DNA from: an uncultured bacterium
GTDB lineage: Bacteria > Cyanobacteriota > Vampirovibrionia > Gastranaerophilales > Gastranaerophilaceae
Reading direction: 5' to 3'
Assembly (NCBI GenBank): GCA_949285255.1
Contig: CASDXV010000005.1
Span: 1 to 64,000, forward strand
Length of the DNA: 64,000 nt
The notes beneath the pieces are model-generated. The model was not told the origin of the DNA, searched no databases, and worked only from the letters and a program-made list of their open reading frames with translations. Within the stretch, counting starts at the first letter, position 1. Every line of letters begins with the position of its first letter. This document shows positions 21,649-40,649 of the stretch, piece by piece. The position numbers and the translations under genes are program-made.

Positions 21649-22143
21649 ATGAGTTTTGATATTTTTGACATAGCAGCTTCAGGAATGCACGCGCAGCGCG
21701 TGATGATGGATACTGTTTCATCTAACATTGCCAATGCCAACACCACAAGAAACGCTAAAGGTGAAAGAGAAGTTTACGCAAAAAAAGAAGTTACTTTTAA
21801 AGCGGTTTATAAAAACTCTCTGCGTCCCGCCCTTCCTACAGGCGGAGTTGAGCCTCAAATGGACTTAGAAAACGGCCCTTACCTAAGAGGAAGAGTTGTT
21901 TTTGAAGAGGATGGACTTTCTCAAGGGGTTATGGTAGATAAAATAACGGAATCCGAAAACCCGTACAGAATGGTATATGACCCGACTCACCCCGATGCGG
22001 ATGAAAAAGGTATGGTAACTTTGCCAAATGTAAATGTCGTTGAAGAAATGGTTAATATGGTTAACGCTTCAAAGGCTTATGAGGCAAACGTCACAATAGC
22101 TCAAACAACAAAAACCATGATTCAATCAGCTATGCAAATATAG
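21649..22143 (+). CDS. flgC: flagellar proximal rod protein FlgC
   Basis: A 164-aa rod subunit. The N-terminus FDIAASGMHAQRVMMDTVSSNIANANTT carries the rod-protein signature. The C-terminus has the FlgC hallmark VNVVEEMVNMVNASKAYEANVT, which packs the second coiled-coil helix. A ribosome site AGAGG lies upstream. It is co-transcribed with flgB and fliE; the spacing to fliE is 9 nt. Confidence 0.96.
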   Translation: MSFDIFDIAASGMHAQRVMMDTVSSNIANANTTRNAKGEREVYAKKEVTFKAVYKNSLRPALPTGGVEPQMDLENGPYLRGRVVFEEDGLSQGVMVDKITESENPYRMVYDPTHPDADEKGMVTLPNVNVVEEMVNMVNASKAYEANVTIAQTTKTMIQSAMQI

Positions 22144-22152
22144 GATTAGAAA

Positions 22153-22626
22153 ATGAATTTTGAAATTAACACAAATATAGGTTCAATAGATAGCTATAAT
22201 AAAAGTTTTGATAAAAGCATAAAAAATTTCAACGAACAAATCGATAACGCATCTGATTTTAACGAAGTTTTTAATTCAATGACATCATCAAAACCTGCTA
22301 ACTCAAAAGAACCTCAAAAATTAAAAGGCAGTGTTGAGATGTTTTTAGGAGCGGATGCAATTAATGCGCAAAAAATAGAAAACCTCTCGGACACTGCGCG
22401 TATGGCTCGTGACATAGGGCAAGGGTTTTCTCAAGGCGTTACCAACCTAAGCGGTGTGCAAAAAGAGGCGGAAGATGCTATGGAAACTTTTGCTGCAGGC
22501 GGGGATATAAGCGTTCATGAAGTTATGATTGCATCACAAAAATCATCTCTTGCTATGCAGATGGCAATTCAGTTAAGAAACCAGATGATAAACGCTTATA
22601 GCGAATTTAAAAACTTAAGAGTTTAA
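22153..22626 (+). CDS. fliE: flagellar hook-basal body protein FliE, long form
   Basis: The adaptor between the MS ring (FliF) and the rod. The FliE core is the C-terminal half: DISVHEVMIASQKSSLAMQM then QLRNQMINAYSEFKNLRV, which matches the family end. At 157 aa it is about 50 residues longer than typical FliE (about 100). The extra sequence is an N-terminal low-complexity region rich in Asn, Ser and Asp with no known domain. AGGA lies before the ATG. Confidence 0.9.
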   Translation: MNFEINTNIGSIDSYNKSFDKSIKNFNEQIDNASDFNEVFNSMTSSKPANSKEPQKLKGSVEMFLGADAINAQKIENLSDTARMARDIGQGFSQGVTNLSGVQKEAEDAMETFAAGGDISVHEVMIASQKSSLAMQMAIQLRNQMINAYSEFKNLRV

Positions 22627-22640
22627 AAAACCTTAACAAA

Positions 22641-22669
22641 TTGAATTTAACAGTAAAAAAGTCTAAAAT
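22641..22669 (+). promoter_or_regulatory. internal promoter before fliF
   Basis: TTGAAT (22641-22646), a 17-bp spacer and TAAAAT (22664-22669) in the 84-bp gap between fliE and fliF. It could drive fliF-fliG-fliH-fliI separately from the upstream genes. Confidence 0.5.
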
Positions 22670-22710
22670 ACTATAGTAAACGTATAAAATTAACAGGGAT
22701 ATTTAATAAA

Positions 22711-24429
22711 GTGAACGAACATCTAAAAGCCATGGCTCTTGATATAAAGAAAATCTGGGACAAGTTTGACTTGAACCAGAAATTTATGATAAGCGCCTTA
22801 ATGGTCGTTGCCATGGTCGTTTGCGTTTATTTTATTTTTAAAGCAACTGAGCCAAACTGGTCGGTTTTATATTCTGATTTATCAAAAGATGACGTTGCTG
22901 CAATATCTGAAAGCCTTAAAAAAAGCGGTTATGCTTTTAAATTATCCGATGATAAATCAGCTATCTTAGTTCGCGAACAGGATAAAGAGAATCTCAGAAT
23001 TTTTGTTGCGGAAAATGACCTTATAAAAGACTCATCCCCCGGGTTTGAACTGTTGGATGACTTGCAGCTTGGCTCTACCGATTTTAAAAATAAACTTACA
23101 AAACAAAGAATTTTCCAAGGAGAGCTTACTCGCTCAATAGAAAAAATCACAGGCATTCAAAAAGCGAGAGTTCAACTTGCAGAGCCAGAGCGTTCAGTGT
23201 TTTCTGACAATGATGAAGAACCGAGCGCAAGCGTAATATTGATACTTGAGCCAGGCTACAGGCTAAAACCGGCTCAAATTCTTGCTATTAAAAATCTTGT
23301 GGCATATTCTGTCCCAAGACTTACAAACGACAGAGTATTTTTAACGGACCAATACGGAAATGCGCTTAGTGAGGATGTTTCAAAAAACAATACGGATATG
23401 CAGTCTTACAGGTCAAATTTTGAAAAAGAGGCTGCAAAGAAAATCCAAAGCACTCTTGAAACTATAATGGGCAAAGACAATGTCTCTGTTCAAGTTAGTG
23501 CAGTTATGGATTTTAACTCAACCCGCTCGACTATTGAAAGCTACATCCCTGCTGACGGTTCTCAGGGCGGAGTTATTGTAGGACAGCAAAGTGAAAAAGA
23601 AAGCTATAAAAAACCTCAGCCCATAGTTCTTAAAAAAGATGAAGTTGCACTTGACCCTGATAATCCGCAAGCGCAGCAAAACCCTCAGGCGGCGGGACAA
23701 AATGCTCAAAACCCTCAAACTCAAAATGTTATGACTGTTGTTGAAGAGCAAACAGGGATAAGTGAAGCGGATGAAAATTCTAAAAACGTAACAGATAAAG
23801 TTCGCGGACGTGAATTAAGCTATGAAAAAGAAAAAAATGCCGTAAATTATGCGGTTACAAAAGAGGTAAAACAGGTAGTTTACGCCCCCGGTTCTGTTAC
23901 AAGACTGTCTGTAGCGGTTGCGGTTAATAAGATTTTGACTGATGAAGAAAAAGAAGACATAAAAAATCTTGTAATAGCTGCTGCGGGTATGGATATTGCA
24001 AGAGGGGACGTTGTTAATGTTTCAAGTCTTAAATTTATGGGAATTGATAAGGCAGAACAACTGCAAACTTTAAACGAAGAAAGATATGCAAATATTATGG
24101 AAATGTTGAGTTTTATATTTACTAATGTTGCACCGCTTTTAATAGTTCTGGTGCTTGGTTTAGTAGGTCTATCCACTTTCTCATCAATATTTAAAAAGCC
24201 TGAGCCCCCTAAGCCTCAAATTCAGGAAGAAAATCAATTCAGCGGATTTGACCCTTATCTTATGTTGGGTAATAATGAAAGTCCAGAGGGTGAGTATTTA
24301 GAACAGTTGGATTCTGACGAACCGGCGTTTACTTCAATTGTTGATAAGAAACGCGCTGAGATAACGGATATCATAATGAGCGACCCGCAAGATGCGGCAA
24401 GATTGCTCACATCGTATGTTAAAGAGTAG
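22711..24429 (+). CDS. fliF: flagellar MS-ring protein FliF
   Basis: Forms the membrane MS ring on which the flagellum is built. The 572-aa protein has an N-terminal membrane helix (about 27-47), the secretin-like ring-building motifs (PNWSVLYSDLSKDDVAAISESL, and ITGIQKARVQLAEPERSVF with VFLTDQYGN), and a Gln/Pro/Asn-rich variable middle (about 310-345). The second membrane helix is near 455-480 (VAPLLIVLVLGLVGLSTF). The C-terminal tail that binds FliG follows. The start is GTG at 22711; AGGGA about 12 nt upstream is a weak ribosome site. Confidence 0.96.
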   Translation: MNEHLKAMALDIKKIWDKFDLNQKFMISALMVVAMVVCVYFIFKATEPNWSVLYSDLSKDDVAAISESLKKSGYAFKLSDDKSAILVREQDKENLRIFVAENDLIKDSSPGFELLDDLQLGSTDFKNKLTKQRIFQGELTRSIEKITGIQKARVQLAEPERSVFSDNDEEPSASVILILEPGYRLKPAQILAIKNLVAYSVPRLTNDRVFLTDQYGNALSEDVSKNNTDMQSYRSNFEKEAAKKIQSTLETIMGKDNVSVQVSAVMDFNSTRSTIESYIPADGSQGGVIVGQQSEKESYKKPQPIVLKKDEVALDPDNPQAQQNPQAAGQNAQNPQTQNVMTVVEEQTGISEADENSKNVTDKVRGRELSYEKEKNAVNYAVTKEVKQVVYAPGSVTRLSVAVAVNKILTDEEKEDIKNLVIAAAGMDIARGDVVNVSSLKFMGIDKAEQLQTLNEERYANIMEMLSFIFTNVAPLLIVLVLGLVGLSTFSSIFKKPEPPKPQIQEENQFSGFDPYLMLGNNESPEGEYLEQLDSDEPAFTSIVDKKRAEITDIIMSDPQDAARLLTSYVKE

Positions 24430-24456
24430 AGAAATAAAGAGAAGAATTAAAGAGAA

Positions 24457-25479
24457 ATGCTCCCGATACAAATAGAAGCCATGACACATTCACAAAAGGT
24501 TGCCGCACTAATGATAGTGCTGGGGCCTGCTGCAGCATCCGAGATTATGAAAAACATCACGGATGACGATGTATTAGAGCAAATTACCCTTGATATTGCA
24601 GCTATGAACAAGCTTCCCATTGAAACGCTTGAAGCTATAGTTGAAGAGTTTCATACTATTTTTCAGGCTAATTCTATGCTTGCTTCAGGTGGTATGAACT
24701 ACGCTAAAACACTTCTTGAGAAAGCTTATGGGACTGAGCAGGCAAATAAAATTTTAGACAGATTGGTGACAATTTTAAACTCTAATCCGTTTCAGTTTTT
24801 TAACGATGCTGACCCGATTCAGCTTGCGACATCTTTTCAAAATGAAAATCCGCAGCTTATTGCTCTTATTTTAGCTTATTTAAAACCCGAGCAATCTGCA
24901 AAAGTTTTGAATTGTCTGCCTCCTGCGGTTCAGCATAAAGTGTCGTTAAAAATTGCACAAATGGAGACAACTAATCCCGAGATTATTTCTGAGGTTGAAA
25001 AAATTGTTGAAAGCAAATTTTCTAACGTTGTTATACAGGATTTTTCAAAAGCAGGCGGTACAGAGGCATTAGCAAGTATCTTGAACAGAACAGACCGCGC
25101 AACAGAGAAGAATGTTATCGAAATGTTAGAGGAAGAAACCCCTCAGCTTGCTGAAGATGTCAGAAGTCTTATGTTCGTATTTGAAGATATTGTTAATCTC
25201 GATGACAGAGCAATTCAGAGAATACTTCGCGAAGTTGATACAAAAGACCTTGCACTTTCGCTTAAAGGTACGAGGGATGATGTTAAAGATAAAATTTTGC
25301 GCAACATGTCAGAGCGTGCTCAGGCAATATTGCTTGAAGATATGGAATACATGGGTCCTGTTAGAGCTCGTGAAGTTCAGGAGGTTCAATCAAGAATAGT
25401 TAGTGTTATAAGAACTCTTGAACAAAACGGCGAGCTTGTCATTGTACGCGATGGCGCAGGAGATGAGTTAATTGAGTAG
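24457..25479 (+). CDS. fliG: flagellar motor switch protein FliG
   Basis: A rotor protein that meets the stator and couples torque to FliF and FliM. The 340-aa protein has the N-terminal FliF-binding domain (SQKVAALMIVLGPAAASEIMK), the middle ARM domain with the EHPQ-like segment NENPQLIALILAYLKPEQSA, and the C-terminal domain. The torque helix carries charged residues in DDRAIQRILREVDTKDLALSLKG and MSERAQAILLEDMEYMGPVRAREVQ. Length and order match the family. Its stop is embedded in the fliH start (8-nt overlap). Confidence 0.97.
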   Translation: MLPIQIEAMTHSQKVAALMIVLGPAAASEIMKNITDDDVLEQITLDIAAMNKLPIETLEAIVEEFHTIFQANSMLASGGMNYAKTLLEKAYGTEQANKILDRLVTILNSNPFQFFNDADPIQLATSFQNENPQLIALILAYLKPEQSAKVLNCLPPAVQHKVSLKIAQMETTNPEIISEVEKIVESKFSNVVIQDFSKAGGTEALASILNRTDRATEKNVIEMLEEETPQLAEDVRSLMFVFEDIVNLDDRAIQRILREVDTKDLALSLKGTRDDVKDKILRNMSERAQAILLEDMEYMGPVRAREVQEVQSRIVSVIRTLEQNGELVIVRDGAGDELIE

Positions 25480-26380
25480 AATTAAATCAGATAAAATAAA
25501 CCTTGGAAATTCAATAGTTGTTGATTTTTTCTCTGATGAGACGCAGGAGCCTCAAGAATTTGAGAATAATGAAGAAATTTTGTCAGAACAGCGCTCAAGA
25601 ATAAATCTTATGGAGCAAGAGGCAAAAGATAAGATTGAAAAAATGCTTGATGATGCGAGAAGTAAGGCTCAGCAAATAATTCAAGATGCAGAGTTTACCT
25701 CTCAACAACTAAAAGATGAGGCACAAGTTTGCTTGGATGAAGCTAAAAATAAGGCTCAGGAGATATTAAATAGAGCAAATCAAGAGGCGCAAAGCATAAA
25801 TGAAGCCGCTAATCAGGAAGCTCAAACAATAAGAGAATTAGCGTCCAAAGACGGTGCAAAAGAAGGTTTTGAAGCAGGTTACTCTGACGGTATGGAAAAA
25901 ATTCATCAGGAGCTTATGCAAAAAATCCAAGGTATGGATGAAATAGCGCAAAGTGCTTTTGATGTAAAAAATAAAATATTAAACTCATCAAAACATGAGA
26001 TTGTAGAGCTTGTGCTATTAATTGCTAAAAAGATTTGTATAGATTCAATTGACAAAGAATCTGTAGCTAAAGTTGTCAGCTCGTCTATAAAACTATTAAG
26101 CGATAAAGAAAATATCGAGCTTATTTTAAGTGAAAAATACGCAAGACTTTTAAATGAAATTTTAAACGGTGAAGATATAGAAAATATTGATATTGATAAG
26201 TTAAGGGGTATAAAACTTACTTATAATTCAAAATTTTCTGATGATACTTTAATTGTTCAAACGCCAAAAGAGCGTCTTGACTTGGGTTTTAAGACTCAGC
26301 TTGATAATATTTCAAAAGAGTTTTTGAACCGTTTAAATACGGTAGAAGAACAAACGGATGAGGAAGAGCCTCTTGAGTAG
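25472..26380 (+). CDS. fliH: flagellar export ATPase regulator FliH
   Basis: Binds and restrains the export ATPase FliI and shares its fold pattern with the ATP synthase b and delta subunits. The 302-aa protein has a long Glu/Ala/Gln-rich coiled coil (about 35-135), then a FliH-type C-domain (EIVELVLLIAKKICIDSIDKE, and a late segment with TPKERLDLGFKTQL). The start is TTG at 25472, supported by GGAG 9 nt upstream. The TTG overlaps the fliG stop in the sequence TTGAGTAG. Confidence 0.88.
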   Translation: MSRIKSDKINLGNSIVVDFFSDETQEPQEFENNEEILSEQRSRINLMEQEAKDKIEKMLDDARSKAQQIIQDAEFTSQQLKDEAQVCLDEAKNKAQEILNRANQEAQSINEAANQEAQTIRELASKDGAKEGFEAGYSDGMEKIHQELMQKIQGMDEIAQSAFDVKNKILNSSKHEIVELVLLIAKKICIDSIDKESVAKVVSSSIKLLSDKENIELILSEKYARLLNEILNGEDIENIDIDKLRGIKLTYNSKFSDDTLIVQTPKERLDLGFKTQLDNISKEFLNRLNTVEEQTDEEEPLE

Positions 26381-27686
26381 TTTTGATTTTTCTCCTTATA
26401 AAAAAATACTTGAGGATATGACCCCTGTCGTTAAAATCGGTAAAGTGACAGAAATTATCGGTCTTATTATAGAAGCCGACGGGCCTGATTCATCAATCGG
26501 GGACTTGTGCTATATTACATCGGATGATATGGAGCCAATTTACTGCGAAGTGGTGGGTTTTAGGGAAGATAGAGTTCTTCTTATGCCTCTTGGCTCAATT
26601 GACGGGCTAAAATCGGGAGCAAAAGTTATAAACACGGGCTCTGATATGAAAGTAAAAGTTTCAGATGCGCTCTTAGGGCGTGTTTTAGACGGTTTAGGCA
26701 ACCCGATAGACGGTCTGGGTGATATTGCTGCTGATAAATATTATTCAACATCGGGAAAGATAATTAACCCGCTTAAAAGAAAGCCTATAGATGAGCCCTT
26801 AAGTCTTGGAATAAGAGCGGTTGACGGGTTAATAACAATAGGTAAAGGCCAGAGGATGGGTATATTCGCAGGCTCAGGCGTCGGTAAAAGTACCACACTT
26901 GCAATGATGGCAAAAAATACATCTGCAGATATCAATGTCCTTGCACTAATCGGTGAGCGCGGACGCGAGGTAAGAGAGTTTATTGAGCACACTTTAGGGC
27001 CTGAGGGTATGAAGCGCTCCGTTGTTGTGGTAGCCACTTCAGAGCAGCCGTCTTTGGTTAAAATTAAAGCGGCTTTTGTAGCTTGCGCTATAGCAGAATA
27101 CTTTAGAGACAGAGGAAAAGACGTACTTTTTATGCTCGATAGTGTCACTCGTATTGCCCTTGCGCAAAGAGAGGTAGGGCTTGCGGTAGGAGAACCGCCT
27201 GCTACAAGAGGCTATACCCCCTCTGTTTTTGCTCTTATGCCAAAATTTCTTGAAAGAGCGGGTTGTAACGAGTTTGGTACAATAACGGGACTCTATACGG
27301 TACTTGTAGAGGGTGATGACTTTAACGAGCCAATATCGGATACCGCAAGAAGCATACTTGACGGGCACATTATGTTATCGCGTGCTTTGGCGCACAAAAA
27401 CCATTACCCTGCAATTGATGTTTTGCAAAGTATTTCCCGTGTTATGAACAATGTGGTTGAAAAAGAACATAAAGATGCAGCAGGCAAAATCCGTTCCCTT
27501 CTTGCAAGTTATGCAAAAAATGAAGATTTGATTAATATCGGTGCTTATCAAAGGGGTGCTGACCCGATGACGGATAAGGCAATAGCGTTAATAGAGCGGA
27601 TAAACGCTTATTTAACTCAGTCTGTTGATGATAAGGCAAGTTATGAAGTAAGTGTAAATGAGCTCATAAAATTAGCGCAATCATAG
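26373..27686 (+). CDS. fliI: flagellum-specific export ATPase FliI
   Basis: Powers substrate entry into the flagellar type III export gate. It is an F1-beta-like ATPase. Walker A is GSGVGKSTTLAMMA, the Walker B strand ends in DVLFMLDSVTR, and VGEPPATRGYTPSVFALMPKFLERAG is the FliI/InvC signature (an 18-residue core of it suffices). I prefer TTG at 26373 (437 aa) because it recreates TTGAGTAG, the same start/stop overlap as fliG-fliH, with GAGGAAGAG as ribosome site. An ATG at 26358 would add five residues and overlap fliH by 23 nt. The operon ends here; fliJ and the remaining export genes are elsewhere. Confidence 0.95.
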   Translation: MSSFDFSPYKKILEDMTPVVKIGKVTEIIGLIIEADGPDSSIGDLCYITSDDMEPIYCEVVGFREDRVLLMPLGSIDGLKSGAKVINTGSDMKVKVSDALLGRVLDGLGNPIDGLGDIAADKYYSTSGKIINPLKRKPIDEPLSLGIRAVDGLITIGKGQRMGIFAGSGVGKSTTLAMMAKNTSADINVLALIGERGREVREFIEHTLGPEGMKRSVVVVATSEQPSLVKIKAAFVACAIAEYFRDRGKDVLFMLDSVTRIALAQREVGLAVGEPPATRGYTPSVFALMPKFLERAGCNEFGTITGLYTVLVEGDDFNEPISDTARSILDGHIMLSRALAHKNHYPAIDVLQSISRVMNNVVEKEHKDAAGKIRSLLASYAKNEDLINIGAYQRGADPMTDKAIALIERINAYLTQSVDDKASYEVSVNELIKLAQS

Positions 27687-29894: not shown

Positions 29895-30784
29895 GAAAAA
29901 TTGACGCTTCTTACAGAATAATGAAACTTTTTAAAATGTTATATAAGAGTCCTTGTTCCTTGGATGAAATTTGTGATGAATTTTACGGTGAAGACATTAT
30001 ATTAAACCGCGAGACAATTGCAAAGTATTTTAAGACTCTAAGGAGTTTTGGTTGTGTAATAAGAAAAAGAAAAGGTTGCTTTGAACTGGTGAGTGTTCCT
30101 TTTTCTCTTGATTTATCCGATGAAGATTTTTATTTTCTTGCTGCTTTTGAAAACTTGGGTATAAATTTATACGGTGAAAATATAAAAGAAGATTTGAAAA
30201 ATGTTCTTTCAAAGGTGCTTTCTTTAACTGACGGGAGCGGGTATGAAAAATACAGGGGTTATTCAAACGGAGTTGCAAAGATAAACCACATATCTTTACT
30301 CTTTAGAGATAAAATCTCAAAACTTCTAAAATACGGTTACGATAACGCTAAGATTAAGATTTTATACGGTGAGAGAAAAATAAACATCTCTCATATTTCT
30401 TTTAAATACTGTGATAATGCCGTTTTTGTACATGCTTTTAATGAAGATACAAAAAGCTACGAACTTTTGCTTTTAGAAAATATAAAAGAAATATACTCTA
30501 CTCCAAAGAGCTCTCTTGCTTCAAATTTTGCATCAAATACGGTTTTTGAAATAAGAGGCAGGCTGAAAAATTCCTATACGCTCTATGAGGGCGAAAGGGT
30601 GATTAAAGCAGGAGAGGATTTTCTTGTTATAGCAAATAACTTTGAGGATAAAAGCGAACTTTTTAAAAGACTTATAAGGTATGGTTCTTTGTGTAAAATT
30701 ACTTCTCCAAAGGGTGATGTTGAAAAATTTAAAGAAATGCTAAATAAAATGGAAAATAACCTTAAAAATCAAACAGTTAGTTAA
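29891..30784 (+). CDS. WYL-type transcriptional regulator, second of a tandem pair
   Basis: A 297-aa homologue-like protein with the same layout. The winged helix-turn-helix is at 5-65 (MKLFKMLYKSPCSLDEICDEF, LNRETIAKYFKTLRSFGCVI). A WYL-like core spans about 160-215 (KIKILYGERKINISHISF, AVFVHAFNEDTKSYELLLLENI), and a C-terminal arm follows. The start is TTG at 29891, overlapping the previous stop as TTGA. The 3' end overlaps the convergent TPR gene by 8 nt. Sequence identity to the first copy looks low, so the pair is an old duplication or two independent members. Confidence 0.75.
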   Translation: MRKIDASYRIMKLFKMLYKSPCSLDEICDEFYGEDIILNRETIAKYFKTLRSFGCVIRKRKGCFELVSVPFSLDLSDEDFYFLAAFENLGINLYGENIKEDLKNVLSKVLSLTDGSGYEKYRGYSNGVAKINHISLLFRDKISKLLKYGYDNAKIKILYGERKINISHISFKYCDNAVFVHAFNEDTKSYELLLLENIKEIYSTPKSSLASNFASNTVFEIRGRLKNSYTLYEGERVIKAGEDFLVIANNFEDKSELFKRLIRYGSLCKITSPKGDVEKFKEMLNKMENNLKNQTVS

Positions 30785-31505
30785 TTTTTGATTTTTCATA
30801 ACCAAGTATTATGTTTCTTATTTCATAATCATCAGGCTTTGTAGAATATGCGTATCTGTAATACTCAAGTGCAAGTTCGTCATTTCCTGAGCTTTCAAAG
30901 ATTTTTGCTATATTAAAATAAGCATCCGTGCAATTTGGGTCGATATTTATGGCAAGTATATACTCTACAATTGAGTCTTTGTATCTGTTTAAGCACCTTA
31001 AAATATCAGCTTTCATAAAATGTGCTTCCATACTGAGGGGATTTTTTTCTATTGCACTGTTAATATTTGCAAGTGCATCGTTGTATTTTTCTTTGCCTTT
31101 AAAGTTAACGGCAAGCGCCAAATACTCTTCATACGTTGGAGTTATTTTTGCTGCAGCTGCAATTTTTTGAGGATTTAGAGAAATAGAGTATTCTTTTGGT
31201 ATTTTTTCGTATTTTAATTTTTTATCTTTTGGAGTTGAAATTGTGTAGATATTTTTTGAACTAAGCAGATTTAGAGGACGAAAACCTTTGTAGTATGCAA
31301 GGTTTACCTCTTGAGTGTTAATTTCGGGGAGTTTTTTTGTATCAATTGTTTTAGCCGTGGGGATTTGATTTCCTACATCAAGATAAAATTCATAAACAAC
31401 ACCTGCGTTAATTTTTTCATCACAAAATGCTATCTGCGCCTGAGAGGTCAGAAACGCTGCAAATATAGCAATGGCGTATAAAATTTTTTTGTTTGAATTA
31501 TTCAT
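30777..31505 (-). CDS. exported TPR-repeat protein
   Basis: A 242-aa protein with a signal peptide (KKILYAIAIFAAFLTSQAQIAFC, cut near residue 28; a lipobox is not convincing). After a linker of about 90 residues come three TPR motifs (about 125-230: YEEYLALAVNFKGKEKYNDA, AHFMKADILRCLNRYKDSI, AYFNIAKIFESSGNDELALE). TPRs mediate protein contacts, here probably in the periplasm. It is last in the chemosensory operon; the start overlaps the HD gene by 8 nt. A link to motility or pilus assembly is possible but not shown. Confidence 0.8.
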   Translation of the reverse strand: MNNSNKKILYAIAIFAAFLTSQAQIAFCDEKINAGVVYEFYLDVGNQIPTAKTIDTKKLPEINTQEVNLAYYKGFRPLNLLSSKNIYTISTPKDKKLKYEKIPKEYSISLNPQKIAAAAKITPTYEEYLALAVNFKGKEKYNDALANINSAIEKNPLSMEAHFMKADILRCLNRYKDSIVEYILAINIDPNCTDAYFNIAKIFESSGNDELALEYYRYAYSTKPDDYEIRNIILGYEKSKIN

Positions 31506-32109
31506 TTACAAGGCTTATTTTTATCTTAAATACATCCTCAAAAAGAGTTTTTTTCTTGTCAAAAACCCTTTTAATCCCCTTGTCAAACATTATATTTACG
31601 CCTGTTTTTAAAGTCAAAGCTCTAAGGCTAAAATCATATTTAAGGATGATATTTTCAACTGCTTGAAGATGATAATCATCAAGCGCATCAGCAAGTCTTA
31701 TAATTGATGAGATTACAAGTACTTTATTTTTATCTGCTTTTGATAGCGAGCTAAAAAGCTTATGCTTGTTTTCTTTTGGTTTTGAGCCTCTATGATACCT
31801 TATCGAGGCTGCAACTACCTTAAGTTCGTTTTCATCTAAATTCTCTATGCCGTTTTGCAAAATAAGCTTTGCACCTGTTTTGTTATGTGGCTTTAGGGCA
31901 TTTAAGCCTGTAAAAAAATTTCCTATGTCATGTAAAAGTGATGAGCAGGATATTAATTTTTCACTGTTTTTAAAATCTAAAAGAGTGTTTTCGGGAAATA
32001 TTTTTTTTAAATCATTAAATATTTTAAGACTTAAATCTCTAACAAAATAAGCATGTCTTAAGCCTTTTTTTGAAGTAATATAGTTTTTTATATATTCTTC
32101 AACTTTCAT
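31498..32109 (-). CDS. stand-alone HD-domain protein (Ppx/GppA C-terminal type)
   Basis: A 203-aa protein with HD-superfamily metal-site residues: H19 (KKGLRHAYFV), the HD pair in SSLLHDIGNFF, then His in KPHNKTGAKLI and RYHRG, and RLADALDDYHLQAV. This order matches the HD domain at the C-terminus of exopolyphosphatase/GppA proteins, here without the phosphatase part. Possible roles are (p)ppGpp or nucleotide hydrolysis, polyphosphate metabolism or a signalling switch. It overlaps cheA by 4 nt and the TPR gene by 8 nt, so it is in the chemosensory operon. It lacks the GYP motif, so c-di-GMP hydrolysis is not predicted. Confidence 0.75.
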   Translation of the reverse strand: MKVEEYIKNYITSKKGLRHAYFVRDLSLKIFNDLKKIFPENTLLDFKNSEKLISCSSLLHDIGNFFTGLNALKPHNKTGAKLILQNGIENLDENELKVVAASIRYHRGSKPKENKHKLFSSLSKADKNKVLVISSIIRLADALDDYHLQAVENIILKYDFSLRALTLKTGVNIMFDKGIKRVFDKKKTLFEDVFKIKISLVNE

Positions 32110-35100
32110 TTTTGTGCTTTCTTTAAAAAGCCATCAACGCAGCGAACAAAGTGTTCCTGTTCAAATCGGTCTTTTTGAATGTATGCTTGAGAGCCCGCTT
32201 CTTTAAATTTTTTGCCCCATTTGGCTTCAGGCATGGAGGTTAGGACAATTATGGGGATGTTTGCCCACTGGGGCTCTTTTCTTATTTCTTTAACAAATTC
32301 TAATCCGCTCATAACAGGCATTTCGTTATCTGTCACAATAAGGTCAAAGTGTTCTTTGTGCATTTTTGTAAGTGCGTCAGGCGCATTTGTTGCAATCTGA
32401 ACTCTGTAACCGTAGCTTGTTAGGATATTTTTCTGAAGTGTTCTTGTAGTTAGAGAATCATCAACTACAAGAATTTTATGCGAGTAGTTTTCTTTCATTT
32501 TTATAGCTTTATTTGAAGCCACAATTCTTGTGTTCATTTTCTTTGGAATGGTGCTTGAGAAAATATCACCGACATTTAAAATTAGGCAAATTTCACCATT
32601 AGCCAGAGTTGTAATACCTGAAATGTTTTTAACTTTAAACAGCGGAGCTTCCAGTTTTTTATGCAACACCTCTTGGTCGCACACAAGTTTTTCTACAATA
32701 ATACCTATAGTTGTGCTTTCTGATTTTACAATCATAAGAGTGTATTTATTTGCCTGACGGGGTTTATTTTCAAGTTCAAGAATTTGAGAGAGTGTATAAA
32801 CGGGAACTACATCATCATTGTGTACAAAGTAGTTTTTTCCGTCCCTTTCAAAAACATCTGTTGTATCAATTCTAAGCACTGTTTGAATTGATGAAGTGGG
32901 AATGGCATATAGCTGATTTTGTTCGCTTACGATAAAAGTTTTAATGGTAGCCATTGTGGCAGGCAGCTCTATTGTTACCATTGTTCCTTTTTGAAACTCG
33001 CTGAATATATCCACCCTGCCGTTTAACTGCGAAATTTTTGTATGAACTATATCAAGTCCTAAGCCTCTTCCTGAAAGTTCTGTTACTGTATCTCCGGTTG
33101 TAAAGCCGGGGTAGAAAATTAAGTTTACAAGGTGTTCTTCATCTATTTTTTCTATTTCATCAGGTGTTAAAAGACCGCCTTCAAGGGCTTTTTGTTTAAT
33201 TTTTTCTACATCCAGCCCGCGTCCGTCATCTGTGATATTTATTATAATTTTATTTTCTCTGTGCTTAGCGCTTATTGTAATTTTTCCTACAGGGTTTTTC
33301 CCGATAGCTTTTCTTTCCTCAGGCAGTTCTATGCCATGGTCTATTGAGTTTCTTAAAATATGAATAAGAGGGATTTTAATTTCCTCAATGATTTTTTTAT
33401 CTGCTGCAACATCAGCGCCTTCTGTAATAAATTCAATTTGTTTGCCTTTTTCTTTGGCAATATTGTGTACCATGCGAGGAAAAAGGTGAAAGATAGTAGA
33501 TAGAGGTAAGATGCGCATATTTTTTACCATACCTTCAATTTCACTTGTTGCAGAGTTTAATTTAGAGTCGTTTTCCTGCATTTGTTTAAAAAGGTCTGTG
33601 GTTTCTTTTATTAAATAGACCATTTTTTCGGCATGGTAGTTTTGCAGAACCATAAGCTGCTTGTTAAAAGCCGCTATTGCTCTTGGGTCAACAGATGCTC
33701 CAAAAGAGGGGCCCGTAATATATTTTCTGTCAAAATATTTTATATAGTAACCCATTTTATTAAAGCTTTTTTGCCATTCTAAAAGCTCGTTTTGTATGTT
33801 TTTTGCAATACTCAGATGTTCATTTGTTTTAATTCTTGTAACAATAAGGTCGCCGATTTGATTTACAAGTTTATCCAGTTTAAAAGAATCAATCCTAAGG
33901 GTTTTTATATCGCTTGTGTCAATCGTGCTAATCCAATCTTGGTCTGATTTTTCGGTTTTTACAACCTTTTTGTTGGATTTGGGTCTTGCGATATTTAATT
34001 TTGACATTTGCTCAACTATTGTTATTTTTTGCAGCAAAAGTTCTATTTCAAATTTTCTTTCCTCAGGTTTTAAACTCTCGGGTTCAAAGATTTTTCTTGC
34101 GTTTTCGCAAACTTCTTTAATGGCTTCAAGAGTGTCGTTTTCAATATTTTTTGAATTGTTTTGGTACAGATTTAATATTCTAAGGGTAGATTCGAAGATT
34201 TTTTTTATCTCTGTATTTTCAATTTTTGTCAAAACTTGTGAGAGCAGCTCTTTTATATCAGGTAAAAATTCTAGGTTAATCTCAAGCAGGCTGAGTTTTT
34301 CATATATCCTGTCTATTAAGTCTGCGATTATTTTTTTGTCTTCTTTTCTATCTTTTTTTGGACTGTTTTCATCGTTAGACACAAGCAATTCATTTGCAAT
34401 GTTAAAGTAATTTTGTGTTTGTATACCTTTTTCTTTGCAGTAAGCGCTGAAGAATTCCTCAATAGAGTCAATTTTTGAATTCATTTCAAGAATTTCATTT
34501 TCGTTTGGAATTTTATCTCCAAAAGAAGAAATAAATCTGCCTGTATCGGTGATTAAGTCTGAGAGTTCTTTTATATTTAAATCTTTTATTATTACGTTTA
34601 GTTCTGCAAGCGGGGATTTTATTATCTGAATTTCAGAAAAATCGTTATTTTGTCTGGCAGATGAAAAAATGTATATCATCTGAACCATAAGTTCTTCAAT
34701 TTTGTTCAGCTTAGAAAGAAGCTTTTTTACATCTTCCGGACAATTGAAATTTGCAGCACTTTGTTTAATCTCATCCGGCGCACTTGAGGATATTTTTTCA
34801 AGTTTTTCTATATAATCTTGTGTATCTTGGGTTTTATACTCTTGTTTTTGTTCAACAGTTTTATTGATTAAAACCTGAATGTGACTTAATGCTTCTGATA
34901 TTAAATCGGTTATTTCGCTTGTGGTTTCAATTTTTCCGTCTTTTAGACATCCTAAAATATCTTCAATTTTGTGAGCGATTTTTTGAATGCTTTCAAAGCC
35001 CAGCATTCTGGCTGAACCTTTTAGGCTGTGAGCGTCTCTTGCAAGCTGAATTAAGACATCTTGGTTTTTAGGGTCTTTTTCAAGTGCAAACAGGCTTTTA

Positions 35101-35180
35101 TCCATGGACTGCAGAATTTCTCCGCCCTCCTGCTGGAATATATTTAGAATTTCATCCAGTTCATCGTCCAAGAAATCCAT
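32106..35180 (-). CDS. CheA-type hybrid histidine kinase with CheW and receiver domains
   Basis: A 1024-aa chemosensory kinase. The order is: Hpt with phospho-His51 (ARDAHSLKGSARMLGF), a long linker of about 300 residues that replaces the P2 domain, and a dimerisation region (DSFKLDKLVNQIGDL). Then come the ATPase domain (HILRNSIDHGIELPEERKA, DDGRGLD, SGRGLGLDIV), the CheW domain (TIKTFIVSEQNQLYAIP), and a C-terminal receiver (VVDDSLTTRTLQ, acceptor Asp near residue 951 in IVTDNEMP). The fused receiver resembles PilL/ChpA and cyanobacterial PixL-type kinases, which act on pili or phototaxis. It follows the MCP gene by 11 nt. No P2 means no classical CheY docking. Confidence 0.92.
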   Translation of the reverse strand: MDFLDDELDEILNIFQQEGGEILQSMDKSLFALEKDPKNQDVLIQLARDAHSLKGSARMLGFESIQKIAHKIEDILGCLKDGKIETTSEITDLISEALSHIQVLINKTVEQKQEYKTQDTQDYIEKLEKISSSAPDEIKQSAANFNCPEDVKKLLSKLNKIEELMVQMIYIFSSARQNNDFSEIQIIKSPLAELNVIIKDLNIKELSDLITDTGRFISSFGDKIPNENEILEMNSKIDSIEEFFSAYCKEKGIQTQNYFNIANELLVSNDENSPKKDRKEDKKIIADLIDRIYEKLSLLEINLEFLPDIKELLSQVLTKIENTEIKKIFESTLRILNLYQNNSKNIENDTLEAIKEVCENARKIFEPESLKPEERKFEIELLLQKITIVEQMSKLNIARPKSNKKVVKTEKSDQDWISTIDTSDIKTLRIDSFKLDKLVNQIGDLIVTRIKTNEHLSIAKNIQNELLEWQKSFNKMGYYIKYFDRKYITGPSFGASVDPRAIAAFNKQLMVLQNYHAEKMVYLIKETTDLFKQMQENDSKLNSATSEIEGMVKNMRILPLSTIFHLFPRMVHNIAKEKGKQIEFITEGADVAADKKIIEEIKIPLIHILRNSIDHGIELPEERKAIGKNPVGKITISAKHRENKIIINITDDGRGLDVEKIKQKALEGGLLTPDEIEKIDEEHLVNLIFYPGFTTGDTVTELSGRGLGLDIVHTKISQLNGRVDIFSEFQKGTMVTIELPATMATIKTFIVSEQNQLYAIPTSSIQTVLRIDTTDVFERDGKNYFVHNDDVVPVYTLSQILELENKPRQANKYTLMIVKSESTTIGIIVEKLVCDQEVLHKKLEAPLFKVKNISGITTLANGEICLILNVGDIFSSTIPKKMNTRIVASNKAIKMKENYSHKILVVDDSLTTRTLQKNILTSYGYRVQIATNAPDALTKMHKEHFDLIVTDNEMPVMSGLEFVKEIRKEPQWANIPIIVLTSMPEAKWGKKFKEAGSQAYIQKDRFEQEHFVRCVDGFLKKAQK

Positions 35181-35191
35181 ACTTTAGCCTG

Positions 35192-36244
35192 TTATTCCTC
35201 GCTTAAATTTGTTCTGAAGTTTTTAGATAACAATTGAAGATTTTCAACATTTTGGAAATTTTCTTCAGTTGCTCTGTAGTTATTTTCAAGCATAGAATTT
35301 ATTTCAGACACCGCATTTTCCGTTGTTCCTGTGTCATTAGAAATTTTTCTTGATGAGCCTGTCATATCGTTAATGCCTTGAGAAATTTCATTCATAAGCA
35401 ATATTAACTGCTCAATGTTTGAACCTATGTTGTGTGCAAGCTCAATTCCCGATTCAACTTCTTTTGTACCTTCTTCTGTTGCAAGAACGGTTGAGTTTGC
35501 AGTTTGCTGGATATTTGTAATTAACGACGTGATTTTTGTTGTCGCTTGTTTAGATTCATCTGCTAATTTTCTAATCTCACCTGCAACGATTGCAAAACCT
35601 TTACCGTGTTCACCTGCGCGAGCTGCTTCAACTGCGGCATTTAGCGCAAGCAGGTTTGTTTGCTCTGCAATATCTTCAACAAGACCAATGGTTGATGATA
35701 TTGATTGAATAAAGTCTGACAATTCAAGGATTAACTCTGCAATTGTTTGGATTTTATGCCTTATGGTGAACATTTTTTCAATGTTTGCCTTAACTGCGTC
35801 ATACTCTGTATTTGTATAGTTAAGCGAATCAATTGCTTTTTGTTTTGTGTTGTTGATTATGTCGTTTAAATCCGTACTTTGGATTTTTAGATTTTCAACA
35901 AGAAGTTTTATATTTGAAATTTTTGCAAAAGTAAGGTTAATGTTTTCTTTTTGTATAGAAGTTGCTCCCTCAATTTTTTTAGTATTATCAAGAGCTGCTT
36001 CGATGAGTTCATTTATCGCCATACTTGCTCTTTTTTTGAACTGTTTTTTTGTTGCTTCAAAAATAACGACGGTAAGGCAAAATAACAATACAAGAGCGCC
36101 GCCTGTTATTGCACGTGTCATATTGGCAAATTCGACAATAAAAAATAAAAATGCGAAAATTGCAAGAATGATTATTAAATCCACGGTCTGTTTTTTTGCA
36201 AGATAATCGTTTAAACCGTTCTTTTGTTTGATTTCTTTAGACAT
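35192..36244 (-). CDS. methyl-accepting chemotaxis-type receptor without a sensor domain
   Basis: A 350-aa protein. Two closely spaced membrane helices (about 22-62) leave almost no periplasmic part and no HAMP is clear. The remainder is a cytoplasmic four-helix signalling bundle. Its tip is [21 protein letters not shown], the highly conserved receptor hairpin that contacts CheA and CheW, followed by [15 protein letters not shown]. With no extracellular sensor it must sense from inside or the membrane, or take input from another protein. It is first in the operon, followed by the CheA hybrid. No CheR or CheB is nearby. Confidence 0.9.
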
Positions 36245-36269
36245 AAATCCCCTTTTTTTAAAAAATAAT

Positions 36270-36308
36270 GTATAATTTTTATACGTTCAATTATATAAAA
36301 TTTTTATA
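36270..36308. promoter_or_regulatory. two AT-rich inverted repeats at a divergent promoter
   Basis: GTATAA-ttt-TTATAC (36270-36284) and TATAAAA-t-TTTTATA (36294-36308) lie in the 67-bp gap between the MCP gene and the REC/GGDEF gene. Each contains -10-like sequences on both strands. They could be overlapping divergent promoters or binding sites. The ATG at 36312 lacks a Shine-Dalgarno. Confidence 0.4.
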
Positions 36309-36311
36309 CCA

Positions 36312-37706
36312 ATGGCAAAAAAAGTACTCATAATAGACGATAATACGGAAGATGTTAAAAAGACGGCTGCTATCCTTGAAAAAGAGGGCATGACTTGTAT
36401 TCAATCAAACAGTACTTTTGATATTTTAAATATTATTTATACAGAAGTTCCCGACCTTATAATACTTGATATCTTAATGCCCGAACCGGGCGGTTATGAA
36501 TTGTGCCGGATGATTAAATCTGATGACAGTGCAAAAAATATACCTGTCATTATGCATTCTGTTTTAAACAAAAATATTGATAAATTTTGGGCTTATCGCT
36601 CCGGTGCGGATAATTATCTAAATAAAGACTGTCCGCCTGATGAGTTTAGAGATGCCTGTTTAAAAATTATGGAACAGATGCCTGTAAGTCTTGAGGTCAA
36701 GGCAGCGCTTCTGGGACTAAAGTCTTCTAAAACGCCCATTGCTGATACGAATGTAAATTCAAAAGATGACCTTATAAAAGACTTTAACTCTATTAAAGAG
36801 TTGGATGGGGATGTAAATATCCTTGCTATAAAAATATTTAAGGTTATATACAGATATTTTAAATACAGTGTTGCTGCGATGTGTTTTAAGGACAATAAAG
36901 ATATGCAACGTCTTGTGTTCGACGTTTCTGAAAACACATTAGGTTTGGATGTTTTTGAAAGCATAAAAAAGAGAGTAAATGCTCCGTCTGCTGAAATTAG
37001 AGTTCTTCTTAAAAAGGATGAAAAAAATAAAATAGATTCGCTTGAAGATTTTAGTGTTCAATATGAGTATGAAATAAATTCAAATGCTGACAGTGTGGGT
37101 TATTTATGCTTGTATGCCAAAGATAATCTTACATCTTATGAGCTAAAGCTTGCAAATACTATTAAAGACCTTGTAGAGCATATTATGCGCTTAAGGTATT
37201 TTAAAATTTGCAATAAGGACAATCCAAAGGGCGCAAATCCAAGGAAACTCTACACCCAGCTTGATTTTGACAGAATATTAAGTTATGAATACGGTTGGCA
37301 CAAGAGAAACCAATCTCCAATGTGTTTGGCTTTTATGGAGATAGAATCGTTAGAAACGGTAGAAAAACAGTACGGTGGGGAGTATGGAGATATTTTGCTG
37401 GCAAAAGTTTCTAATTTGTTGACAAAATGCTTAAGTGACGGTGATTTTATATACAGAAGCGAAGATGATATTTTTGCCATTTTGATGACAAATTCTGAAC
37501 AAAAAAGGGCGCTTGAGACGCTTGAATATTTAATAGGAAAAATTAAAGACCCGATTTCAAGCAGCATAGATGAAGAAGATATGGAAATTAAAATCGGCGC
37601 TTTAATGTTAAGTGACAGTTATAAGAACCACTATGAATATATTGATGCAATTTATGATGTGTTAGATGAAGCCAGACACAGTGAAGTTGAAATTGTAATT
37701 AGGTAG
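36312..37706 (+). CDS. response regulator with degenerate GGDEF domain
   Basis: A 464-aa protein. The receiver domain spans 1-120 with Asp53 in LIILDILMPEPGG, and the switch Thr is replaced by Ser in IMHSVL. The middle (about 145-300) looks GAF-like. The C-terminus (about 310-464) aligns to the GGDEF fold, but the signature loop reads SEDDI (YRSEDDIFAIL) instead of GG[DE]EF, and the metal-binding region is FMEIESLE. It should therefore lack cyclase activity and serve as a binding or dimer domain. It is divergent from the MCP-cheA operon and 6 nt upstream of the double-CheW gene, so it is the likely receiver of phosphate from the CheA hybrid. Confidence 0.85.
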   Translation: MAKKVLIIDDNTEDVKKTAAILEKEGMTCIQSNSTFDILNIIYTEVPDLIILDILMPEPGGYELCRMIKSDDSAKNIPVIMHSVLNKNIDKFWAYRSGADNYLNKDCPPDEFRDACLKIMEQMPVSLEVKAALLGLKSSKTPIADTNVNSKDDLIKDFNSIKELDGDVNILAIKIFKVIYRYFKYSVAAMCFKDNKDMQRLVFDVSENTLGLDVFESIKKRVNAPSAEIRVLLKKDEKNKIDSLEDFSVQYEYEINSNADSVGYLCLYAKDNLTSYELKLANTIKDLVEHIMRLRYFKICNKDNPKGANPRKLYTQLDFDRILSYEYGWHKRNQSPMCLAFMEIESLETVEKQYGGEYGDILLAKVSNLLTKCLSDGDFIYRSEDDIFAILMTNSEQKRALETLEYLIGKIKDPISSSIDEEDMEIKIGALMLSDSYKNHYEYIDAIYDVLDEARHSEVEIVIR

Positions 37707-37712
37707 GTTGAA

Positions 37713-38756
37713 TTGGATAATTTTGAAAGCAAAATAATAGAAGTTGAACAAAGCACCGGTGTTACGCCCGAGTTTCCTGATAGGGTTTATACAATAGTAA
37801 ATATTGCGGATGATTACTATGCTTTCGATGCAAAAAATGTTCTTGAAATTCTTAAATTTGTTGAGCTATCTCGTCCCGAGCGCCTACCATCTCATATTGC
37901 AGGGCTTTTTGAGTATGATGGTAAGGTTATAAGCATAGTTGATATAAAATCTGTTTTAGATGTTGAAAAAAAGCCCTATGATATAAACTCCATGATTGTT
38001 ATTTTAAAAGTTGAGTCTTATGTCTTTGGAGTAATTGTAAATAAAGTTATTGATATTAAAAGAGTTGAGCTTAAAAATCTTCAGCCAACTCCTTATAATA
38101 CTCAGCATAATTTTATAGAGTGTATTTACGCTGCAAAAGATTATCAATGCAGCGTTTTAAACCTAAATGCGATTAAAAATTGGGTTCTAGAACATGTAGA
38201 TGACAGTGTCGATAGCAGTTCTTTTGACCTTGCAGTGCAAGATGAGCAATCAAGGGAGATTTTACACAGGAGAAGACTTGAATATCTTGAGAAAACAAGT
38301 AAAAATCCTTATAACATGTTAACGGATAAAGACGAGTTTGTTTCGTTTTTTGTCGGTGAGAACAGATATTGCCTTAAGATGAACGATATCAGAGGTTTTT
38401 ATAAGCTGCAAGAAACAAAAATGATAAAAGTTCCCTGCACTCCTGATTTTATACTGGGTTTAGTTAATATCAAAGGCGATTTTATCTGTGTCGTTGATGT
38501 TAAAAATTATTTTCACTCTCAAAATGTGCCATATAGCGGCTCGGGGACAATTATTGTCCTTAACTCCGATGAATTTAAAATAGGAATATTGGCTGATGCC
38601 ATAAGTGATAATATCCAGATAAAACCTGATGAAATAAGCGCTCTTAAAAAACAAGAGGGCAAGAGTGAACTTATGCAGTATGTAAAAGAGGGTGAAATTT
38701 TCCTTATAATAAACGTAAAAGAAATGCTTGCAAATGATAAGTTATTTATCAGATAG
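37713..38756 (+). CDS. double CheW-domain coupling protein
   Basis: A 347-aa protein with two CheW folds in tandem. The first covers about 20-160 (YTIVNIADDYYAFDAKNVLEI, HIAGLFEYDGKVISIVDI) and the second about 205-345 (VSFFVGENRYCLKMNDIRGF, FILGLVNIKGDFICVVDVK). CheW couples receptors to CheA, so a fused pair could bridge two rings or join the receptor to two kinases. The start is TTG at 37713, 6 nt after the REC gene stop. The end overlaps the convergent Maf gene by 15 nt. CheV proteins have one CheW plus a receiver; this is different. Confidence 0.88.
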   Translation: MDNFESKIIEVEQSTGVTPEFPDRVYTIVNIADDYYAFDAKNVLEILKFVELSRPERLPSHIAGLFEYDGKVISIVDIKSVLDVEKKPYDINSMIVILKVESYVFGVIVNKVIDIKRVELKNLQPTPYNTQHNFIECIYAAKDYQCSVLNLNAIKNWVLEHVDDSVDSSSFDLAVQDEQSREILHRRRLEYLEKTSKNPYNMLTDKDEFVSFFVGENRYCLKMNDIRGFYKLQETKMIKVPCTPDFILGLVNIKGDFICVVDVKNYFHSQNVPYSGSGTIIVLNSDEFKIGILADAISDNIQIKPDEISALKKQEGKSELMQYVKEGEIFLIINVKEMLANDKLFIR

Positions 38757-40649
38757 ATACTCCAAGGCCTCTTTTAGTCTATAGTCCAGCCCTTTTAATA
38801 TACTGAGATTTGAAAGCAGAATTTTATTTACCTCAGAGTTGTCTTTTTTTCCTTTTAATTTTTTTAAGTTATCGGAAAATCTGTTTGTATATGATATACA
38901 GAGGAAAAAGACGCTCGGGTAGGTATAGTAATTTTTTGTAAAATCGGATAGTATTTTTACTATTTTTTCTTCAAAATTTTGAGTGTTTTTATTAAAACTT
39001 TTTCTTCTTGCAAATTCTTTTAGGTATTCTTCCTGATATTTAAGCGCAGACGATGCAATGCTTAAAATCCTTGTGTAGAGTGCTTGAGTTTGTTCTTTTG
39101 CTTTGTTTAGTTTTTCTAAATTATAATTTGGTGCTTTGGCTAAAATATCTGTTTTTTCAATGTTTTTTTCTTCTTTTAGCGCTTCATTGAGTTCAATGTT
39201 TTTAAAGCCGTTTATCTGAGCTCCGCCTGTTGATGAGTTTATATATAAAATATCGGGGTTTTCTTTTGCAAACTGTTCAAAATATTTTATAAAAATAGCA
39301 TAACATGCCTGTGTGGGGAGGCTTTCTCCGTTTTGCCCCAAGACGGTATATAGGGTTTTATTCATGCGTTTTATATAGTTTTTAACATATGTTTCACTGT
39401 ATTCTAGGTCAATTTGTTTTGAGCCAAGAAGTTTTTGTTTGTATTTTTCAAAGTCTTTGGCTACAATTTCATATTTATTTGTTTTAGGGTTTAAAACGCA
39501 CTCTAAATCTTCATAGGCGCTGCCTTTGGCGTAGCATTTGCCGTCTTTAAACGCCAGATTTTGCCCGCAGAGAATAATTTTTTTAAAGCCCATAATTTTA
39601 GCACAGGATAGCGCCGTGTAAGATACCGTGCCTATGCTTTTTTGACTCTTTATGTCTATATTTAGCGCTTCTGCAAGCCAGTCGTTTAAGAAGTTATCTT
39701 TTGAGAAAAATAAAAATTTATTTTTGGTTTCAATGTCCCAAAGGTAGGTATTTGAGAAAGGTTCAAAAATAAGATTAATTTTGCTTGTGTCAATCTCTTC
39801 TATTTGACCTCTTGTATCTATTGCCTCTACTACACAGAGAAAATCAGGTGTAATACCGTTTTTGTCAAGAAGCTTTAATGACGGGCCGACTGCAAAAAGT
39901 ACAAATTTGTCACGGTTTTGCTTTATTGTTTCGATATTTTCTTCAAGAGATGGCCCTGCTGAGGCAATAAGGGCACATTTGCCTTTGTAGATATCTTTTA
40001 GTGAACTTACAAGCGGAGTTTTTACAATTTTATTTAGACTGGATAGAGTGTTTAGTGTGGCTGTTGTAGCAATTTTATTCAAAGTATTGATATTTGCCTG
40101 CTTTTCACCCCTTGTTTTTTCGACAAAAGTGTGAGTTTTTTTTATTTCATCACCAAAAAGCTTAAAATAAGACGATAAAAACGATATTGTTATTGTTGTT
40201 TCTTTGTCGGATAAAATATCCGTCCAATCAAGCAGTTTTTGTATATTATTTACTACAAGTACATTTTTCTTTGAGAGGTTTTCGCTAAATTCCAATACCT
40301 CAAAAACACCTCTTAATATATCTGTATTTGGTTCATAGATTATAACTACACCTTTTGATTTTGATATAAATTCATCTGCAAGATAGCCTAAACCCAGCCC
40401 CCATATTATTCTGATTGAGTTTTTATTATTTATGTCTTTAATGCTCTCAACTATTTTTTGCGCCTCTTGTTTAGCGGATGCTATACTGTGAAGAGGGATT
40501 GAATTATATAAAATATTGTACTCTTGATTTTCGTTTTGAACTAACTCAAGATTTGATTTTATATTTTCTATCCTTAAAATTTCATCGGCAAGCTCTTTAT
40601 CATATCGTGAAATAGCTTGAAGATTTGAGTTTAGTACTTTATTTTCCAT
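38742..40649 (-). CDS. Maf-type motility accessory glycosyltransferase (DUF115)
   Basis: A 635-aa protein. The central region (about 210-400) has the DUF115/MptE-like core: CALIASAGPSLEENI, DKNGITPDFLCVVEAID, then SIGTVSYTALSCAKIMGF and ILCGQNLAF. Proteins of this type (Maf of Campylobacter, Aeromonas and others) transfer nonulosonic acids onto flagellin. The N-terminal part carries a second Rossmann-like segment (IIWGLGLGYLADEFI), as Maf proteins do. The C-terminus is helical. No membrane segment. It lies between chemosensory and membrane-protein genes, but is transcribed alone on the minus strand. Flagellins and sugar-synthesis genes are outside the window. Confidence 0.85.
   Translation of the reverse strand: MENKVLNSNLQAISRYDKELADEILRIENIKSNLELVQNENQEYNILYNSIPLHSIASAKQEAQKIVESIKDINNKNSIRIIWGLGLGYLADEFISKSKGVVIIYEPNTDILRGVFEVLEFSENLSKKNVLVVNNIQKLLDWTDILSDKETTITISFLSSYFKLFGDEIKKTHTFVEKTRGEKQANINTLNKIATTATLNTLSSLNKIVKTPLVSSLKDIYKGKCALIASAGPSLEENIETIKQNRDKFVLFAVGPSLKLLDKNGITPDFLCVVEAIDTRGQIEEIDTSKINLIFEPFSNTYLWDIETKNKFLFFSKDNFLNDWLAEALNIDIKSQKSIGTVSYTALSCAKIMGFKKIILCGQNLAFKDGKCYAKGSAYEDLECVLNPKTNKYEIVAKDFEKYKQKLLGSKQIDLEYSETYVKNYIKRMNKTLYTVLGQNGESLPTQACYAIFIKYFEQFAKENPDILYINSSTGGAQINGFKNIELNEALKEEKNIEKTDILAKAPNYNLEKLNKAKEQTQALYTRILSIASSALKYQEEYLKEFARRKSFNKNTQNFEEKIVKILSDFTKNYYTYPSVFFLCISYTNRFSDNLKKLKGKKDNSEVNKILLSNLSILKGLDYRLKEALEYLSDK

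Follow-up and report, generated by a model that had tools for sequence, protein, structure and literature searches.

A compact, probably methylation-independent chemosensory array of the Gastranaerophilales and a possible shift of its output from c-di-GMP to the flagellar switch

Organisation and conservation of the array locus

The window, i.e. the whole stretch of 64,000 nucleotides analysed here, belongs to a Galligastranaerophilus-like bacterium within the Gastranaerophilales, an order of non-photosynthetic relatives of cyanobacteria. Its genome (1.6 Mb, 43 contigs) is 92% complete, and all of the genomes compared are metagenome-assembled. Domain searches of the window agreed with the open reading frames and domains described in the initial annotation, and the genes are real. 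A minus-strand operon of three to four genes, coding for a methyl-accepting chemotaxis protein (MCP), a hybrid CheA, an HD protein and a TPR protein, faces two plus-strand genes that form an operon and code for a REC-GGDEF protein and a double-CheW protein. The array and its neighbours comprise the following features:

21649..27686, plus strand: flagellar operon region with a rod protein gene, fliE, fliF, fliG, a gene in the fliH position and fliI, separated from the array by about 4.5 kb, a linkage conserved in the genus
30777..31505, minus strand: TPR protein that begins with a hydrophobic, signal-like segment; its gene closes the operon, overlaps the HD gene, lies just outside the range given in the initial annotation and was recognised only in the window's genus
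31498..32109, minus strand: HD phosphohydrolase of the Ppx/GppA domain III type; accessory, in some genera only
32106..35180, minus strand: hybrid CheA with domain matches to Hpt, H-kinase_dim, HATPase, CheW and a C-terminal REC
35192..36244, minus strand: sensor-less MCP with two predicted transmembrane segments and a signalling tip; sole MCP of the genome
36312..37706, plus strand: REC / GAF-like / degenerate GGDEF protein (pseudo-cyclase), divergent from the kinase operon
37713..38756, plus strand: double-CheW coupling protein; sole CheW protein of the genome outside CheA
38742..40649, minus strand: MptE-like / PseD-like flagellin-modification protein adjoining the array, with the linkage conserved in the genus

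The interval that separates the array from the flagellar operon (28977-30784, plus strand) encodes two consecutive regulator-like proteins of 305 and 297 aa, conserved in the genus and without a Pfam match.

The initial annotation had proposed, as its own test, a search for the same neighbourhood in related genomes. At the 13 loci examined in the genus, the entire neighbourhood is preserved along with the flanking flagellar operon, one contig covering it incompletely. Other families of the order share the arrangement of the core, in which MCP-CheA is set opposite REC-GGDEF and CheW-CheW, and such conservation is far beyond chance. The class-wide sample comprised 289 genomes and included 89 members of the order with the kinase; within the family, array, cyclase or flagella have often been lost. 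The HD gene occurs in several families and is missing from others. Its metal ligands (H18, H59-D60 and D140) and the RYH105 motif are invariant in eight orthologues. The HD protein was rejected as a cyclase partner, since its presence does not track the cyclase; its role as an extra output, suggested in the initial annotation, is putative.

Adaptation enzymes and receivers elsewhere in the genome

Genome-wide, one CheA, one MCP and one double-CheW protein were found, and CheW domains are confined to CheA and the double-CheW gene. A family search for CheB gave no match in this genome and none in the 15 members of the genus, several of which are 99% complete; the same search gave CheB matches in nine relatives at the order or family level. 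The only protein with a CheR fold (on contig C10) scores 96 bits, compared with about 200 for true CheR in relatives, lacks a CheR_N match and is located among metabolic genes, unlinked to the array. It is sporadic in the genus, being present in 6/15 genomes and absent from 9/15. At locus L133, this divergent methyltransferase gene occupies positions 6849-7604 (minus strand). Judged from these sequences, a hidden CheB or CheR was rejected as the adaptation enzyme of the array.

Among the 21 receiver matches in the genome, two free-standing ones are of note. The 119-aa single-domain receiver on contig C25 adjoins its own histidine kinase and was set aside as a cheY of the array, while the 199-aa receiver is encoded behind fliM-fliN. 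The statement that there is no free cheY thus holds at the locus, but the genome does contain a candidate output receiver next to the switch genes. Likewise, the suggested search of the remaining genome confirmed a single compact array with neither CheB nor a real cheR, although a divergent, unlinked CheR-fold protein and free receivers do exist.

Beyond the order, the class survey placed the nearest hybrid CheA in family f8 of the same class (loci L184, L185 and L186), where the cluster reads CheW, CheR-TPR, CheW, MCP, CheA-REC, CheB and further receivers; a REC-Hpt protein is also present. The occurrence of this hybrid CheA in a full Wsp-type cluster suggests that the adaptation enzymes were likely lost within the Gastranaerophilales; alternatively, they may have been gained in f8. 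Plasmid-borne relatives were of little use as class references, as the best matches are 26-39% identical and stand in mixed contexts.

The chemoreceptor

The two predicted membrane helices of the array MCP are separated by a very short loop, so that it has no sensor domain and almost no periplasmic part. Its dN/dS is 0.062 where measurable within the genus. A CheR/CheB-binding pentapeptide was not found. A scan with a strict methylation consensus, which finds four sites in Tar and two in Tap of E. coli but may miss unusual sites, gave 0 sites in the array MCP, and 14/14 orthologues across the order are equally site-free. At the fetched array loci, 52 of the 53 MCP matches lack a strict site, and the remaining one has a single site. 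In relatives that carry CheR and CheB, at least one site is carried by 26 of the 29 further MCP rows (among which are some fragments of one and the same gene), while the array MCP orthologue of the same genomes is site-free in 5/5. The absence of sites even in these relatives suggests that methylation independence is a feature of the array throughout the order and not merely the outcome of recent gene loss. The array is very probably methylation-independent and Wsp-like in the origin of its function.

The hybrid kinase

CheA contains a single Hpt domain, and the domain search found no P2 (CheY-binding) domain. A long span separates H-kinase_dim (425) from HATPase (602). The phosphotransfer residues of Hpt (H50) and of the C-terminal receiver (D907, D950 and K1002) are invariant, and the kinase, Hpt and receiver residues are unchanged in 14 orthologues spread over the order. 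The alignments bear out the earlier description of a hybrid CheA with an intact receiver. The dN/dS of the kinase is 0.044 where measurable within the genus. Several array kinases of genus g37 (e.g. G229, G230 and G232), from genomes without FliM, align to the model no further than about position 900 of 1036, which would fit a loss of the C-terminal receiver.

The REC-GGDEF protein

In the window protein, the active-site motif is degenerate (SEDDI in place of GG[DE]E[FYLI]), and the RxxD I-site has been lost along with it (SDGD), while the phosphorylatable Asp and the Lys of the receiver are kept. The dead cyclase with an intact receiver had been correctly recognised from the single sequence. 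Its status as part of the design of the system did not survive comparison with relatives: all 19 orthologues examined beyond the window's genus and a second one possess GGEE and an Rx[TS]D I-site, and both motifs are gone in all 19 orthologues inside these two genera, each of which retains the receiver Asp and Lys. On these alignments, the dead cyclase is a derived state of two genera, and the ancestral system probably made c-di-GMP. The opposite decay is seen at locus L182 (7347-8825, plus strand), where an orthologue with intact GGEE has its receiver Asp replaced.

The suggestion that the dead GGDEF domain may bind c-di-GMP is unlikely to hold for the usual site, given the loss of the I-site. 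The domain nevertheless seems to be kept under selection, as its dN/dS is 0.058, a value from one unsaturated pair, most pairs being saturated; within the genus it carries the conserved motif GDFIYR.[ED][DE][DN]. Further cyclases with intact GGDEF motifs are encoded elsewhere in the genome, which suggests that c-di-GMP is probably present in the cell. The predicted structure of the window protein comprises a receiver, a GAF-like middle domain, so labelled from the order of helices and strands in the model, and a GGDEF-type fold, with best matches to PleD, WspR (3bre, 3i5a) and DgcR. The pTM of the model is 0.40 and the placement of the domains relative to each other is uncertain.

Link to the flagellar switch

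The receiver behind fliM-fliN is confined to the window's genus and the second genus with a dead cyclase, and its gene was placed as follows:

G000:C1 52094-52669, minus strand: fliM-linked receiver of the window's genome, directly behind fliM-fliN
L135:6862-7461, minus strand: fliM-linked receiver gene, in a fliM-fliN-receiver operon

It is present in 15/15 genomes of the window's genus and 5/5 of the second genus, and in 0/25 of the other flagellate genomes examined, in some of which the fliM flanks are short (1.2-4 kb). The phospho-site residues are conserved in the alignment, and an N-terminal helical extension of about 75 aa precedes the receiver. The predicted model shows an ordinary receiver fold and uncertain N-terminal helices, for which no structural match was found. 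The N-terminal CheY-binding motif of FliM, LSQxEIDxLL (PMC5677366), is absent from the window's family in all genomes sampled and kept in most other families.

A clade uniting the two dead-cyclase genera, beside non-flagellate genera with a live cyclase, was recovered with modest support (83/88), so the coincidence of dead cyclase and fliM-linked receiver may go back to a single event.

In the class sample, the kinase is present in 67/68 FliM-bearing genomes of the order. That it tracks FliM, that pilus ATPases do not track the kinase, and that the array adjoins flagellar genes in the genus together support a link to the motor. However, FliM is missing from 22 of the 89 kinase-bearing genomes of the order, so the array does not serve flagella alone in every genome; of the FliM-less ones, some (L177, L178 and L181) keep an active-motif cyclase. 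In the flagellate genera g6, g40 and g41, neither a REC-GGDEF gene at the locus nor a fliM-linked receiver was found, and another link between array and flagella must exist there.

In genome G016, in which no FliM was found, a FliI/T3SS-type ATPase, which matches FliI of the window at about 450 bits, adjoins the array (L117 5338-6684, plus strand). A 450-aa protein beside the array in the same genome was considered as a replacement output and rejected, as it is a TPR protein.

Proposed function and alternative explanations

The MCP, anchored in the membrane, would sense a membrane or cytoplasmic cue and control the single hybrid kinase CheA-CheW-REC, to which the double-CheW protein would tie it. 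In the ancestor and in most relatives, CheA would phosphorylate the divergently encoded REC-GAF-GGDEF protein, resulting in the synthesis of c-di-GMP. In the two genera, the cyclase and its I-site are dead with the receiver kept phosphorylatable, and a receiver with a helical N-terminal extension has been added directly behind fliM-fliN. The array may now signal to the flagellar switch through this receiver, by a presumed phosphotransfer from CheA and a presumed action on the motor. The pseudo-cyclase and the CheA receiver could then serve as competing phosphate acceptors that set the size and duration of the signal instead of methylation; CheA receivers are known to serve as phosphate sinks in Helicobacter pylori (discussed in PMC10782961).

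Such rewiring is supported by the coincidence, in the same two genera, of a dead cyclase with a live receiver and the fliM-linked receiver. We hold with about even confidence that this is a methylation-independent Wsp-like array which lost adaptation early and whose output would later have passed from c-di-GMP to the flagellar switch. The fuller version is more tentative: an array without methylation adaptation by design, which may have exchanged c-di-GMP synthesis for direct control of the flagellar switch through inactivation of its cyclase and recruitment of a new receiver into the fliM-fliN operon, any adaptation being phosphate competition among three receivers.

Another explanation leaves the output with the pseudo-cyclase itself, the phosphorylated protein acting as a protein- or ligand-binding effector on the motor, the pili or another cyclase, with the fliM-linked receiver served by other kinases. 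The strong conservation of the degenerate domain in the genus, with purifying selection in the one measurable pair, would fit such a role, as would the divergent transcription of the gene from the kinase, the retained receiver, and the probable presence of c-di-GMP made by the other cyclases; in addition, two FliM-less genomes of genus g35 have lost this gene too. However, the known ligand sites are gone with the active site and the I-site, and the restriction of the fliM-linked receiver to exactly two genera would be left unexplained; we regard this explanation as rather unlikely. Control chiefly of type IV pili, as in PilL/ChpA and the cyanobacterial Pix/Pil systems, is suggested by the architecture of the kinase: a C-terminal REC without P2 is typical of Tfp-class kinases, and a long region between H-kinase_dim and HATPase is a trait of cyanobacterial Tfp CheA (PMC10782961). 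All genomes encode pilus-type ATPases, the kinase also occurs in genomes without FliM, and two order-level relatives have a T2SSE/PilT-like gene at a distance of about 9 kb from it. Pilus/secretion ATPases, however, occur in 39/39 relatives with or without the kinase, the kinase is almost never lost among flagellate genomes, one Hpt was found in CheA, and no PatA-, PilG- or PilH-like gene lies at the locus. A pilus output as the main role was rejected because these ATPases do not follow the kinase, and we consider it improbable.

The dead cyclase and the missing parts could also be losses without a new function, the array being a remnant of reductive decay. The small genomes (1.6 Mb), the frequent losses of array, cyclase or flagella in the family and the converse state in the L182 genus, with an intact cyclase and a lost receiver Asp, would agree with decay. 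Against it stand the conservation of kinase, MCP, double CheW and receiver in the genus, the low dN/dS of kinase and MCP, the invariant catalytic residues and the synteny that is stable in the genus, so that decay is highly improbable.

Chemosensory arrays are the textbook case of adaptation via receptor methylation. A conserved, order-wide family built from a single receptor, kinase and coupling protein, from which the methylation parts are missing and whose receptor is free of methylation sites, offers a natural minimal array for asking how such systems function without methylation memory, and the genera with a live cyclase, set against those with a dead cyclase and a switch-linked receiver, provide a testable case of output rewiring. 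No description of this array was found in the literature searched, and published accounts of these bacteria mention only the presence of chemotaxis and flagellar genes (PMC5877343, PMC4451040).

Comparison with known chemosensory systems

The array shares with F-class flagellar chemotaxis its co-occurrence with flagella, its linkage to flagellar genes in the genus and a receiver encoded with the switch genes, but it lacks CheR/CheB, a P2 domain, an MCP with the methylation consensus, the CheY-docking peptide of FliM and a recognisable cheY at the locus. Caulobacter, too, combines a chemosensory system with CheY-like proteins that act on the switch, the Cle proteins, which are motor-binding c-di-GMP effectors (PMC5677366). 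Unlike these, the fliM-linked receiver keeps its phospho-site residues, and the C-terminal arginine-rich c-di-GMP peptide is not seen in its alignment.

The CheA-CheW-REC hybrid is shared with the cyanobacterial Pix/Pil systems of the Tfp class (PMC5812497). These employ PatA-type and CheY-type receivers and sensor-bearing MCPs, in contrast to the cyclase-type receiver, sensor-less MCP and double CheW of the array, and the Tfp class in general (Pil/Chp, Pix) would be expected to have multiple Hpt domains, compared with one here, and PilG/PilH or PatA-type receivers, which were not found at the locus. The initial annotation had described the systems with related hybrid kinases as using CheR/CheB-type adaptation or several receivers. 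The use of CheR/CheB is not general, as no CheR or CheB match was obtained in the control cyanobacterium Synechococcus elongatus, in which CheW and MCP matches were found.

PilL/ChpA and PixL had been named as the related systems, and they do share the hybrid kinase; the closest known analogue, however, is the Wsp system, which had not been named. A kinship of the kinase to WspE is suggested indirectly by its nearest class-level relative, which stands in the Wsp-type cluster of f8; given its long dimerisation region, a trait of cyanobacterial Tfp-class kinases, its formal class assignment is provisional. The f8 cluster shares CheW, MCP and CheA-REC in one operon but differs in having CheR-TPR, CheB and separate receivers, and no REC-GGDEF protein was recognised there. 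Wsp itself consists of WspA-B-C-D-E-F-R (PMC8552884). Common to it and the array are an MCP, a WspE-like CheA-REC hybrid, two CheW units, fused here in one chain instead of the separate WspB and WspD, and a WspR-like REC-GGDEF protein, with active motifs in relatives and dead in the window; the two WspR structures are among the best matches of its model. The array differs in the absence of WspC (CheR-TPR) and WspF (CheB), in an MCP without methylation sites or sensor domain, in the GAF-like domain between REC and GGDEF, in the HD phosphohydrolase of some genera and in its divergent promoters. Judging from gene content and motifs, the system outside the two genera would work like WspA/E/R without WspC/WspF. 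An exchange of output in Wsp-type systems has a precedent in the WspH variant of Burkholderia, in which the output is cyclase-less and the signalling core is retained (PMC8552884).
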